64,000 nucleotides of DNA. It comes from Bryobacteraceae bacterium (GTDB lineage Bacteria > Acidobacteriota > Terriglobia > Bryobacterales > Bryobacteraceae). The position numbers and the translations under genes were made by a program. Numbering within the stretch: position 1 is the first letter of the stretch; each line of letters begins with the position of its first letter. Positions 1,807 to 7,250 of this stretch are shown piece after piece. The notes under the pieces are model-generated. The model saw only the letters and a program-made list of their open reading frames with translations, had not been told where the DNA came from and searched no databases. The DNA is taken from the NCBI GenBank assembly GCA_019752335.1, contig JAIEMJ010000001.1, positions 248,001 to 312,000 on the forward strand, in the 5' to 3' direction.

Positions 1807-2930
1807 GCCGGTTTCTGCCGCGCCAGCGCGAGGTTCTCCGTAACGTGCTCCATGGTGATCATCTCCGAGATCACCGCGGTTAGGTTCGGATTCTTCAGCG
1901 CCCAGACATAGCTCTTGCGCGGCGCGCTGAGCGGACCCGGCACCGCCGCGTTTAGCCGGGCAATCCGTTCGGGCGGCGTCACCCGTCCGCGGCCTAGGTT
2001 GGCCGGCCGCGCGGCTTTCATCGCGATCACTCCCAAGCCGGCTTTGTGGGCCGCCGCCAAGGCTGGCTCCACGCGCGGGCCATTGAAAAGGTTGTACGCC
2101 ACCATGGCCGCCGAATAGACTTTGGCTTTCACCGCCGCTTCCAGCACGCCGCCCGGATCTGTGTGCGACGAGAGGCCCAAATGCCGCACCTTGCCGGCCT
2201 TTTTCAGCGTCTCGAAGGCTTCGAAGATCTCCGGATGCTGCAGCACTTCGTAGGGCGTGTTGGTGCCGTGCGGGCACATCAGCAGGTCGAGGTGGTCCGT
2301 GCCCAGCGTCTTGAGCGACCGGTCCACCGATTGCAGAATCAAGTCGCGGTAGTTCTTCTTGCGGTCAATCCGGTCGCCGTACTTCTTGGCCATCTCATTC
2401 GCGAGAGAAGCAGCGTCGAGTTCCTCCTGTTGGCCCTCAAAATAGCCCAGGAAATACTCGGGCGCTTCCACTTGGCGCCGTTCCACCTCTTGCTTTGCCG
2501 CGGAGCGCAAGCGCTTCTGCTCGGTGGCGTCGAGGCTGGCGAAGATATCGGCGTAGAGCTGATTGCGGTTGATGTCCCACAGGCTCACCTTCGAATTCAG
2601 GAAGAATTTATCGCGGCCCCGCGCGGCGATCACCTTGGCATAGCCGGCTTCGCTGCGGCCGTTGCCGTAGGCAGGCGCGGTGTCCAGGTAGTTCAGACCG
2701 AGGTCGAGCGCCTTGAGGACATGATCATAGCTGTCGACGCTGATGGTGTTGCCGCCCATCACTACTTCGCTAATCAGATAGCCGGTACGGCCCAACTGCC
2801 GGTAAGCGACGCCCGCCTGCCGGTTGCGGCTTTCGCCCTCGGCCGGGGTAGCGGCGTCGGCCTTCAGGGCCAGGGCGGCGGAAAGCGCGGAAACTTCGAG
2901 AAATTCACGGCGTCGCATCATGACGCTCAT
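1803..2930 (-). CDS. aldo/keto reductase with Tat signal
   Basis: The protein has 375 residues. The N-terminus carries RRREFLEVSALSAALAL, a twin-arginine export signal (residues about 6-25). The aldo/keto reductase barrel follows, with the catalytic tetrad area visible: D83 and Y88 in DTAPAYGNGRSE, and K114 in FLNSKVS. A roughly 60-residue insertion rich in charged residues follows the third strand. A Tat-exported reductase suggests a cofactor bound before export, as in other acidobacterial and planctomycete members; the substrate is unknown. A second Tat aldo/keto reductase lies at 12338-13207. Two start ATGs (2930 and 2918) are possible and both keep the Tat motif. Confidence 0.85.
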   Translation of the reverse strand: MSVMMRRREFLEVSALSAALALKADAATPAEGESRNRQAGVAYRQLGRTGYLISEVVMGGNTISVDSYDHVLKALDLGLNYLDTAPAYGNGRSEAGYAKVIAARGRDKFFLNSKVSLWDINRNQLYADIFASLDATEQKRLRSAAKQEVERRQVEAPEYFLGYFEGQQEELDAASLANEMAKKYGDRIDRKKNYRDLILQSVDRSLKTLGTDHLDLLMCPHGTNTPYEVLQHPEIFEAFETLKKAGKVRHLGLSSHTDPGGVLEAAVKAKVYSAAMVAYNLFNGPRVEPALAAAHKAGLGVIAMKAARPANLGRGRVTPPERIARLNAAVPGPLSAPRKSYVWALKNPNLTAVISEMITMEHVTENLALARQKPA

Positions 2931-2980
2931 TCTAACCTGGGAAACCTTTGCCCGGCGGCGGGCGTATTCTAGAAAGAGAC

Positions 2981-4210
2981 ATGACTTACCGGATAGCCCT
3001 GATTTTGGCCCTTTCAGTGGGATTAAACGCCCAGGACGACGGCATCAACTGGCTGGACAGCTACCCCGAGGCGCGCAAGATCGCGAAGGAGAAACAGCGG
3101 CCGATCTTCGTCGAGTTCCGCTGCGAAGCTTGAATTAACGGGCGCAATTTCGACGCACAGGTTGTGCTGTCGCCAAAAGATTCTCCGCTCGGAAAGTTGC
3201 TGGACCAGTACGTCTGCGTGCGCATAACGCGCCTGGATGCGATTGACGTCGGTCTCTTCGAGCATGATCGCAACAACGCCATCTATTTCTACGCGCTGAA
3301 CGCCGATGAGCAGATCTATTGGCGCTACGGCGGCCGGGACTCGGCTTCGGCCGAGACTTACCTGCACACCGACAGCCTGGTGCAGGCGCTGCAGAAGGGC
3401 CTCGATCTCCATCGACGCTATTTGGCCGGCGATCTGCCCAAGACGGCGCGCGCCAAGCCCATTTTTCCGCGCGAGATTCCGCTGCTGGTGAAGCGCACCT
3501 TCGACAACAACCAATGCGTGGAGTGCCACCTGGTGCAGGACTATCAGAACATGCACAAAGAGCTCGACGGCACGCTCGACCCGGTGCGCGACCTTTACAA
3601 GTCGCCCGACATCAAGACGCTCGGCATTTACCTGGACATCCCGCAAGGCCTGCTGGTGCGCGAGGCGAAGGGCGCGGCGATCGCGGCGGGCATGCAGGCC
3701 GGGGATCGCATCGCCGCGGTGAACGGCACGCCGGTCTACACCTTCGGCGACTTGCAATATCAATACGACAAGGTGGATCGCAAGGCTGATCGTCTGGAAC
3801 TTACCGTGGAGCGGGCAGGGAAGCCGGCGAAGCTTACGATTGACCTGCCCACGCGCTGGTGGTGGACCGATTTGCGCTTCCGGCAGTCCTCCGTGGATCC
3901 GCGCTTGTATTTTGAAGACAAGCCGCTTGCGCCCGAGGACAAACAACTCCTGGGCCTGAAGGCCAGCGGCTTCGCCAGCGAAGTGAAATACGTCTCGGAT
4001 TTCGCCAAGGTGATGCAAGCCCACGAACTGAAGGTCGGCGACGTGATTGTGTCAGTGGACGGCGTGGAGAGCGACCCGTTGGCGCATACCGCCGAGTTGT
4101 ACCTGAAGCTGCGCAAACCAGTCGGCTCCGAGGTGACGTTGCTGGTGCTGCGCGGCGGTGAGAAGATGAAGATGCCCCTCAAAAGCAGCCGCATGAGTTT
4201 TCGCAAATGA
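2981..4210 (+). CDS. probable selenoprotein: thioredoxin-like domain (CxxU), CxxCH motif and two PDZ-like regions
   Basis: The frame opens at an ATG behind AGAAAGAG and encodes a signal peptide (about residues 1-18). A thioredoxin-like segment follows (PIFVEFRCEA-U-INGRNFD), where the TGA at 3131-3133 is codon 51. Coding continues in the same frame to 4210 for 409 codons in all. C48-x-x-U51 sits exactly where the redox CxxC of a thioredoxin fold should be, and a SECIS-like hairpin lies 25 bases downstream. A CVECH haem-c-like motif occurs near residue 180, then PDZ-like segments at about 210-290 and 330-400. Known families of secreted Trx-PDZ proteins contain Sec or Cys at this place. A plain nonsense mutation is the alternative, but the hairpin makes it unlikely. 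The gene overlaps the next by ATGA. Confidence 0.85.
3151..3172 (+). promoter_or_regulatory. bacterial SECIS-like stem-loop
   Basis: The stem is CGAC-GCAC (3151-3158) pairing with GUGC-U-GUCG (3164-3172). The apical loop is AGGUU (3159-3163) and one U is bulged at 3168. The loop starts 25 nt after the UGA at 3131-3133. Bacterial SECIS elements need a short stem with a small loop, a G among the first loop bases, and roughly 16-37 nt between UGA and loop; all of these are met. The GGU in the loop and an unpaired U recall the SelB-binding features of the E. coli fdhF element. The hairpin lies inside the coding sequence, as expected in bacteria. Confidence 0.82.
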
Positions 4211-4716
4211 TCGCCCTCTTTCTACTCGCCCTAGCCCAGGATTGGTCGCCCGCCGTGGAAGTGATTCACGACGAGACGATCTGCGTGAAGTACCAGGCTC
4301 GCATCGACGGTGACCATCTGGTGGTGCGCGCGCAACTCGCGCCTTCGTGGCATACCTTCGCCATGGACAACAAGGTTCGCGCGACGGAGAAGCTGGCGGG
4401 CAAGCGCAGTTTGGGCCAGGACAAGCCGACGTCGATCACGGTGAGTGGTTCGCTCACGCCGGTGGGGGCCTGGTACCAGAGCCCGGTGAAGGATTTCTCG
4501 AAGCCCGAACAGAACTGGTTCAGTTGGGGCTTCGAAAACGAGGCCTGGTTTGCGACCAAGGTGGCGGGAAGCCCAGGTCCGTTGACGTTGGTGATGCGGG
4601 GGCAGGCCTGTTCAGAGTCGACGTGCAAGAATATCGAAGCCACCCTCACTTTGCCGGCGGTGAAAACGGGCGCGGCGCTGGCGTTGCCGAAGGGCTTGAT
4701 CGAAGTCCGGCGTTAA
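4207..4716 (+). CDS. secreted protein similar to the DsbD N-terminal (alpha) domain
   Basis: A short hydrophobic leader (MIALFLLALAQ) is followed by an all-beta domain of about 150 residues. It ends with GQACSESTCKNIEATLTLP, which resembles the disulfide-bearing tail of the DsbD periplasmic N-domain, where two cysteines pass electrons to periplasmic partners. No membrane DsbD core follows, so this is a stand-alone domain. The ATGA overlap with the selenoprotein gene upstream means co-translation and suggests that the two form a thiol-exchange pair outside the cytoplasm; that role is inference. Confidence 0.65.
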   Translation: MIALFLLALAQDWSPAVEVIHDETICVKYQARIDGDHLVVRAQLAPSWHTFAMDNKVRATEKLAGKRSLGQDKPTSITVSGSLTPVGAWYQSPVKDFSKPEQNWFSWGFENEAWFATKVAGSPGPLTLVMRGQACSESTCKNIEATLTLPAVKTGAALALPKGLIEVRR

Positions 4717-4765
4717 GTTCACCCCTGGAGTTTCTGAAGCTATTCTGGTTGAGGAGGTTCTACTC

Positions 4766-5005
4766 ATGGCATGTCTAGACTGGTCGCAATGCCCGATCGT
4801 GGAGAGCATTCCTGGAAAGGTGAGTGGCGTTTGGGTCTTCCGGGATACCCGGGTACCCGTCTCGGCGATCTTCGAAAATCTCAAATGCTCTCCCATGGAA
4901 GAGGTGCTTGAGAACTTTCCGGTCACGCGGGACCAAGTACAAGCTGTGTTGGACTTTGCCGCCAAGAGCGCTCTGTCCCCGCTGGAGCCTTCTCGCGCCG
5001 CATGA
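4766..5005 (+). CDS. DUF433 family antitoxin-like protein
   Basis: This 79-residue protein has a strong GGAGG ribosome site. The pattern CPIVESIPGKVSGVWVFRDTRVPV...IFENL, with a VLENFPVTRDQVQAVLDFA helix, is the DUF433 fold, a small winged-helix-type protein. DUF433 genes usually stand directly before a DUF5615 PIN-like toxin and act as the presumed antitoxin. Here the stop overlaps the next start by ATGA, the usual arrangement, but the toxin downstream is broken. Confidence 0.82.
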   Translation: MACLDWSQCPIVESIPGKVSGVWVFRDTRVPVSAIFENLKCSPMEEVLENFPVTRDQVQAVLDFAAKSALSPLEPSRAA

Positions 5006-5912: not shown

Positions 5913-6385
5913 GCCGTTCCTTTCCAAGCCTGCTTGATGCGGGTTAGTTTCGTTGAGGCGTTGGTCGCCGTAATGCCGAGGATCTCACCGATCTCGGGGA
6001 ACGAGTGCCCTTCGAGATACAAGAGCACCAGGGAACGCTCCAGTGGTTCGAGTTGCGCGACCCTCCGGTAGAGTTCCTCCGCTTCATCTGAAACACGATC
6101 CGCCGCGGGCAACTCCGCCGCGTCCGTGAGGGAGACCGCCGCTCCCCGATCCTGCCGCAGCGAGGAGATCGCCACGTTGAGCGCAATGCGGTACATCCAC
6201 GTGGAGAACTTGCGCGCCGGATCGAAGGCGGGAAATGAACGCCACAACTGGAGCGCGATCTCTTGCGCGAGATCTTCCCGCTGTGGCGCCGTCCGGGCGT
6301 AGAGACGGCTGACGTGATACAAAATCCGCTGATGCTGTTCGAGCAGAAGCGCGAAGCGGTCTTTGTCGCTCAAGCCAATTCCCAC
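5909..6385 (-). CDS. ECF-type RNA polymerase sigma factor
   Basis: The protein has 158 residues. Region 2 runs over about 10-75, with EDLAQEIALQLWRSFPAFDP and KFSTWMYRIALNVA. Region 4 runs over about 105-155, with LEPLERSLVLLYLEGHSFPEIGEILG as the recognition helix-turn-helix. It directs RNA polymerase to alternative promoters. It is the first gene of a two-gene unit with the membrane protein that overlaps its stop codon; the partner may modulate it. Confidence 0.92.
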   Translation of the reverse strand: MGIGLSDKDRFALLLEQHQRILYHVSRLYARTAPQREDLAQEIALQLWRSFPAFDPARKFSTWMYRIALNVAISSLRQDRGAAVSLTDAAELPAADRVSDEAEELYRRVAQLEPLERSLVLLYLEGHSFPEIGEILGITATNASTKLTRIKQAWKGTA

Positions 6386-6425
6386 GCCCTATGATTCGCT
6401 GGGGTGGCGCAAATCGTCACACCGG

Positions 6426-7250
6426 CTAACGGCTCCGGCGCAGCGTATAGGCTTCCGGCGTCAGGCTGTCCTTTTCCAAACGCTTCCAGTCGTCGGAGGC
6501 ATGCAAGAGCTTGCCGCTGATGTGATTGGAGCGCTCGGAGATCAGAAACGCGGCCAATTGCAGTTGCTTCTCCGGCGCGATGCCGCCGCTCTGGCGGACC
6601 TCCTGGGCGTCCTCTAGCTCGCGCCAACCGGCTTGATCGCCGGCGCGGAGGATCTCATCGGTCATGCTGGTGTAGGCCGCGCCCGGGGCCATGCAGTTCA
6701 CTTGCACGTTATGCTCCTGCACTTCGGCGGCCAGGCTTTCGGCGAAGCGCGCCAGGGCCGTCTTGGCGGAGGCGTAGGCGGTGAAGTTGGGCCGCGGACG
6801 GGTGCCACCGCCGCCGGTGAGCAAGAGGAGCTTGCCGCGCTTTTGGGCCAGCATGCCCGGCAAGGCGGCGCGGCAGGTGTGCATGACGCCCAGGAGATTG
6901 GTGTCGATGGTCTCCGCCCAGGCTTTGGGGTCCGTGGTGGCGAAGGGGCCGATGGGGCCTTGGATGGCGGCGGCGCAGATGACGGAGTCCAGCCGCCCGA
7001 AGTGGGCGCGGATCCGGTCAGTCGCGGCGACGATTTGCTCGTAATCGCGCACATCGGCGCGGATGCGCAGGGACGTGCCGCCAGCGTGCTCGATTTCGAG
7101 GGCTGCCAGGTCGAGTTCGGCTTTGCTGCGCGCCAAGAGGCCGACGCGGGCGCCCATCTGGGCCAATCCGATGGCCAAACGCTTGCCAATGCCACGGCCA
7201 GCGCCGGTGATCAAGATTCCGGTATCCCGGATAGTGGTTGTTTGCGACAC
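6426..7250 (-). CDS. short-chain dehydrogenase/reductase
   Basis: This 274-residue protein has the classical SDR layout. The NAD(P)-binding TGAGRGIGK motif is at about residues 15-24, the D(V)RDY cofactor region near 66, CAAAIQG in the NNAG position near 95, a serine-like TGGGG region, and the catalytic YASAK near 160-164. After GAAYT the C-terminal tail varies and gives no clear substrate. The NNAG motif is altered (CAAAI), which occurs in some active SDRs. It is a stand-alone gene between the sigma unit and the divergent infA promoter. Confidence 0.88.
   Translation of the reverse strand: MSQTTTIRDTGILITGAGRGIGKRLAIGLAQMGARVGLLARSKAELDLAALEIEHAGGTSLRIRADVRDYEQIVAATDRIRAHFGRLDSVICAAAIQGPIGPFATTDPKAWAETIDTNLLGVMHTCRAALPGMLAQKRGKLLLLTGGGGTRPRPNFTAYASAKTALARFAESLAAEVQEHNVQVNCMAPGAAYTSMTDEILRAGDQAGWRELEDAQEVRQSGGIAPEKQLQLAAFLISERSNHISGKLLHASDDWKRLEKDSLTPEAYTLRRSR

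Follow-up and report, generated by a model that had tools for sequence, protein, structure and literature searches.

The closest described relatives of the gene analysed here are the members of NCBIfam family NF041199. A 2026 review listed this family as CxxU with one selenocysteine (Sec), citing a 2008 GOS study (PMC13188914, PMC2398784). The 2008 work of Zhang and Gladyshev contains an entry named "putative secreted serine protease MucD", which had two Sec sequences and 12 Cys homologues (PMC2398784). This entry is probably NF041199; we matched the two by name, and the match is supported by PMC9402790. An entry in PMC9312934 reads "PDZ domain-containing protein, Thioredoxin_7, CxxU". In the searchable open-access texts, we found no description of a heme motif, an nDsbD partner or UxxU members of the family. 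A second system that is relevant here is Escherichia coli DsbD, in which the C-terminal thioredoxin (Trx) domain passes electrons to the N-terminal domain (complex 1vrs).

We analysed a 64,000-nucleotide stretch of DNA (the window) from a Bryobacteraceae bacterium. The gene of interest and its parts were as follows, in window coordinates.

2981 to 4210, + strand: Trx7/PDZ selenoprotein gene, 409 residues including the predicted Sec51, with the stop TGA at 4208 to 4210
3047 to 3424, + strand: thioredoxin-like domain (Thioredoxin_7, PF13899; 28.1 bits, cut-off 27; structural match over about residues 20 to 148)
3122 to 3133, + strand: CxxU redox motif, Cys48-Glu-Ala-Sec51, codons TGC GAA GCT TGA
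3131 to 3133, + strand: UGA codon, predicted to be decoded as Sec (the codon is TGA in 40 of 40 sequences of the first search and in 80 of 80 named loci)
3668 to 4207, + strand: two PDZ domains in the C-terminal half (PDZ_2, two stretches, 56 bits)

The initial annotation had proposed a single gene that starts at ATG 2981, contains the TGA at 3131 and stays open to 4210, and the coordinates and the sequence agreed with this proposal. Specifically, the only in-frame interruption between ATG 2981 and the stop codon was the TGA at 3131 to 3133, in the context FRCEA-TGA-INGRNFD. As had also been proposed, this TGA was located in a thioredoxin CxxU motif (CEAU, residues 48 to 51), at the position where the second Cys of a CxxC motif is expected. 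Without readthrough, ORF calling produced two ORFs, one of 61 amino acids (2948 to 3133) and one of 348 amino acids (GTG 3164 to 4210), just as the initial annotation had anticipated for standard annotation. Reading the locus as one gene is a correction of the genome, since the gene is otherwise split or truncated. An aldo/keto reductase gene on the minus strand (1803 to 2930) was divergent from the selenoprotein gene.

The product matched NF041199, "Trx7/PDZ domain-containing (seleno)protein", with 421.4 bits over residues 23 to 401 (cut-off 300). All of the family's features were found in it: the whole-protein score, a Thioredoxin_7 domain with the CxxU/CxxC motif and C-terminal PDZ domains. 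Thus, the gene product belongs to a family that is already named yet uncharacterised, and it is not a new family; the Sec-containing Trx/PDZ families that the initial annotation mentioned correspond to NF041199. That annotation was silent on the heme-c motif, on the coupled nDsbD-like gene and on the earlier cataloguing of the family. When the NF041199 profile was run over an even sampling of the phylum, its PDZ domains produced matches everywhere, and the cut-off was exceeded in only 2 of 396 genomes.

The AlphaFold model of the selenoprotein was confident (pLDDT 92.7). The best structural match of the Trx domain was 3f9u_A, a Bacteroides cytochrome-biogenesis-related domain (Z 14.1). The C-terminal domain of DsbD (1vrs_D) matched with a Z of 9.5, but it was one of many Trx folds at about this value, so the specific likeness to cDsbD was weak. 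The PDZ region matched PDZ-containing chains with a Z of about 10, and the C-terminal half matched the PDZ domains of HtrA proteases.

The TGA column was compared in two sets of sequences. The first search yielded 40 genomes (the window's own and 39 relatives) with a full-length homologue at about 49 to 83% identity, and the same codon was TGA in every one of them, in the context RC(E/A/S)(A/P)U. A separate scan of named genomes, which overlapped in part with the organisms of the first set, yielded 80 loci, again with TGA at this codon in all cases. The 80 loci came from MAGs and genomes labelled Acidobacteriota, Planctomycetota, Verrucomicrobiota/Puniceicoccaceae, Poribacteria, KSB1 and Myxococcota. 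More distant planctomycetal members of NF041199 carried CxxU, UxxU or CxxC at the motif, and the UxxU members had a second in-frame TGA nine bases from the first (loci L142, L144, L147, L149-L151, L153, L155-L159, L167 and L169-L171, all Planctomycetota). In an extended family set of 50 members, there were 28 CxxU, 16 UxxU and 6 CxxC motifs, and both motif positions were exclusively Cys or Sec in all 50. The homologue alignment that the initial annotation had called for therefore contained only Sec (TGA) or Cys at the TGA column.

These data bear on the idea that the TGA is a true stop codon, with the locus being a pseudogene, a sequencing error or two separate proteins. Standard annotation does give two ORFs, and two relatives have an additional in-frame TAG (L016/L088, in L088 after about residue 160, and L133, after residue 185); these further TAG codons would reflect decay or assembly error. 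Against a true stop, the TGA was kept in some 100 genomes from several phyla, and the protein part downstream of it was conserved up to the last residue. Because the TGA is found at one codon in about 100 independent genomes, sequencing error, which had been raised as a possible refutation, cannot account for it. The Cys residues in homologues, as well as the frozen hairpin codons and the complete Sec machinery described below, also speak against a stop. Thus, the true-stop reading is already refuted by conservation, and we regard it as extremely improbable.

A putative bacterial SECIS element was located close to the UGA codon.

3151 to 3172, + strand: predicted bacterial SECIS hairpin (core stem 3155 to 3159/3163 to 3167, GGU loop 3160 to 3162, bulged U 3168)

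The hairpin folded as CGAC-GCACA-GGU-UGUGC-U-GUCG at -9.6 kcal/mol (z -2.7), and 3 of 200 shuffled sequences were equally good. The initial annotation had described a stem-loop at these positions with an AGGUU loop and a bulged U. The hairpin itself held up; the loop is GGU if A3159 and U3163 pair and AGGUU if they do not. The bulged U and its lower stem were present in the window, but they were lineage-specific rather than general: covariation support for the bulged-U lower stem was not found, and distant relatives had a continuous stem in its place. The suggested RNA fold of 3131 to 3180 was less favourable, as this longer stretch preferred another structure, with an energy no better than that of shuffled sequence. 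Because fold energy alone was weak proof, we relied on conservation and covariation instead. An Rfam scan of 2900 to 4800 returned no SECIS family; its single sub-threshold match, to a microRNA, was rejected as chance.

Codon usage around the hairpin was strongly constrained. The codons GAC GCA CAG GTG (D58, A59, Q60 and V62) were identical in all 40 orthologues, and GCA was frozen at A59 although only 14% of the Ala codons in this gene set are GCA. The whole codon run after the UGA, GAC GCA CAG (GTT) GTG CTG, was nearly frozen in the 40 sequences, and at most invariant-residue columns elsewhere the commonest codon was kept in 30 to 85% of sequences. In distant relatives, the stem sequence differed but the pairing was retained. 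In a set of 30 sequences, 90.6% of cells paired, with double compensatory changes at five of the six stem pairs. There were 27 double-change cells versus 8.7 in shuffles, and none of 500 shuffles reached the covariation score; this count left out a few Sec-form planctomycetal sequences that fit only a one-base-shifted register. Of four core pairs, a mean of 3.7 was retained in the Sec forms, as opposed to 0.5 in the six Cys forms. The element therefore has the features of a bacterial SECIS, namely a stem-loop close to the 3' side of the UGA, a G in the apical loop and a conserved structure.

The search for selA, selB, selC and selD that the initial annotation had proposed identified all four in the genome. 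The scores were 468 bits for selA (cut-off 268), 376 bits for selB (cut-off 242) and 69 bits for the tRNA-Sec gene selC, which has the anticodon TCA (cut-off 47). The selD gene (L038, G000:C9:243525-244424) contained an in-frame TGA of its own (HVKAAG-U-ASKL), which suggests that this genome's SelD is itself a selenoprotein. In the tallies over relatives, only matches above the curated cut-off were counted for SelB and tRNA-Sec, because loose E-values inflate the numbers with related translation factors and other tRNAs. The selB cut-off was exceeded in 12 of 13 diverse genomes that host homologues. Among the Planctomycetota, selB was present in 14 of 16 genomes with TGA forms versus 3 of 16 with forms lacking TGA (p = 0.0002). 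In one Bryobacterales genome, selA was the immediate upstream neighbour of the Trx7/PDZ gene (L112:3521-4954).

Conservation of a TGA does not by itself name the residue, which could in principle be another amino acid, such as Trp under an altered genetic code or Cys inserted by a suppressor tRNA. We consider such a reading highly improbable, as the genome has a tRNA-Sec with a TCA anticodon together with selA, selB and selD, the SECIS-like hairpin covaries and is lost in Cys forms, and TGA terminates normal genes here, including the Trx7/PDZ gene. The central proposal of the initial annotation, that the TGA is read as Sec, was thus borne out by a conserved column restricted to Sec and Cys, a covarying hairpin and full Sec machinery. 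Judged from these sequence comparisons, it is nearly certain that TGA 3131 is decoded as Sec by SelB and tRNA-Sec and that decoding is directed by the hairpin immediately 3' of it.

A c-type heme motif was found between the Trx-like domain and the PDZ domains.

3515 to 3529, + strand: putative c-type heme attachment motif CVECH (Cys179-Cys182-His183), with C179, C182 and H183 invariant in 50/50 family members
3410 to 3412, + strand: His144, candidate distal heme ligand, conserved in 48/50

CxxCH motifs may occur without heme. In this genome, both a CxxCH motif in the protein and cytochrome c assembly machinery (three PF01578 genes above the cut-off) were present. The sequence data suggest that heme would be attached covalently at CVECH, and His144 may be the second ligand.

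The gene that follows the selenoprotein gene was also analysed.

4207 to 4716, + strand: predicted nDsbD-like protein gene with a C-x4-C pair, overlapping the selenoprotein gene by a stop/start ATGA

The ATGA overlap was kept in 34 of 40 sequences, and this arrangement indicates that the two genes are translationally coupled. Across phyla, an nDsbD-like homologue adjoined the selenoprotein gene downstream in 58 of 78 loci, including genomes labelled Planctomycetota, Poribacteria, KSB1 and Myxococcota. In about a quarter of the loci, particularly in one Acidobacteriota group, an adjacent nDsbD-like gene was not detected. The product of 4207 to 4716 scored 18.1 bits with Pfam DsbD_N (PF11412), which is below the cut-off of 25, and its closest orthologue (L058) exceeded the cut-off with 26.5 bits. 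The AlphaFold model of the product had a pLDDT of 90.9. Its top eleven structural matches were nDsbD and ScsB N-terminal structures (Z 9.4 to 12.1), whose unrelated competitors reached a Z of about 8 at most, and the C-x4-C pair was invariant in the aligned homologues. Based on the model, the product is predicted to have the immunoglobulin-like fold of the DsbD N-terminal domain with a Cys pair, and it is probably exported.

Other neighbours were observed as well. Genomes labelled Verrucomicrobiota and Thermoanaerobaculia had EF-hand neighbours, some of which were fused to an nDsbD-like domain (L125:5231-6577, L128:3617-4969 and 6292-7140, L134:4151-4966). In the window, the nDsbD-like gene was followed by a gene for a small DUF433 protein (4766 to 5005, 37 bits), a family that is frequently an antitoxin.

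As noted above, DsbD moves electrons from a Trx domain to its N-terminal domain, and the coupling of a Trx-fold CxxU protein to an nDsbD-fold protein suggests an exchange of the DsbD type. The best reading of the locus would be a periplasmic selenol/thiol-heme redox relay with an nDsbD-like partner, in which electrons could move in either direction. The exported polypeptide would consist, in order, of the Trx-like domain with Cys-x-x-Sec, a single CVECH segment and the two PDZ domains. Electrons would be exchanged between the CxxU domain and the disulfide in its nDsbD-like partner. The covalent heme would couple the two-electron selenol/thiol pair to the pool of one-electron respiratory cytochromes, and client proteins would be held by the PDZ domains. 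Export, the partnership with the nDsbD-like protein and client binding by the PDZ domains are thus predicted parts of the relay. As a whole, the combination of Sec, NF041199 membership, exchange with the nDsbD-like partner, a heme link and PDZ clients seems to us a fairly probable explanation.

The strongest competing explanation is an enzyme that works on its own as a reductase or peroxidase. Its Sec would reduce peroxides or the disulfides of PDZ-held clients with electrons from the genome's DsbD, and its CxxCH would bind no heme but play a structural part, as a disulfide or metal site, or tune the redox couple. Most Sec-containing proteins with a Trx fold are redox enzymes (PMC13188914), one DsbD transmembrane protein is encoded in the genome, and the heme at CxxCH is read from its motif. 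This rival leaves the coupled nDsbD-like gene unexplained, and it must also accommodate a CxxCH with exact heme-c spacing in 50 of 50 members, the second His in 48 of 50 and a genome that carries cytochrome c assembly genes. Thus, we think that a stand-alone enzyme is unlikely and favour the relay.

A broader proposal follows for the family. Members of NF041199 may be "seleno-cytochromes", exported proteins that would combine a CxxU pair (UxxU in some Planctomycetota) with covalent heme c, PDZ domains and an nDsbD-like partner. We put this forward tentatively, as a possibility that falls slightly short of an even chance. If true, Acidobacteriota, Planctomycetota, Verrucomicrobiota and other groups would have an undescribed route that joins thiol chemistry in the periplasm to respiration. 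A family known by name alone for years would gain testable biochemistry (heme c and a selenol/thiol pair), a partner and a multi-phylum distribution. In addition, the natural series of Cys, Sec and double-Sec forms tracks the presence of selB, which is helpful for asking why Sec persists. The family itself is already known, and the added anatomy is a modest advance for an uncharacterised family.

Compared with known systems, the window's protein is closest to NF041199, which it resembles in the full-length match, Thioredoxin_7, CxxU and two PDZ domains, and from which it departs in nothing. The family as reviewed has one Sec, whereas we also found UxxU members in Planctomycetota. The likeness to E. 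coli DsbD is that a Trx-fold CxxC/U domain is encoded together with an nDsbD-fold Cys-pair protein; unlike in DsbD, the two are separate genes with no transmembrane domain between them, Sec replaces Cys, and the heme motif and PDZ domains are added. The magnetosome protein MamP likewise combines PDZ with a CxxCH heme-c motif, but it has neither a thioredoxin domain nor Sec, and in the window's protein there is one CxxCH, placed before the PDZ domains. The match to MamP was 28 to 29% identical and was confined to its PDZ domain. The likeness to the HtrA proteases DegP, DegQ and MucD was limited to the PDZ domains, and since no protease domain was detected in the window's protein, the old name "MucD" is misleading. 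Membership in the MamP and HtrA/MucD groups was therefore rejected, as the matches were confined to the PDZ domains, and the protein is best placed in NF041199.
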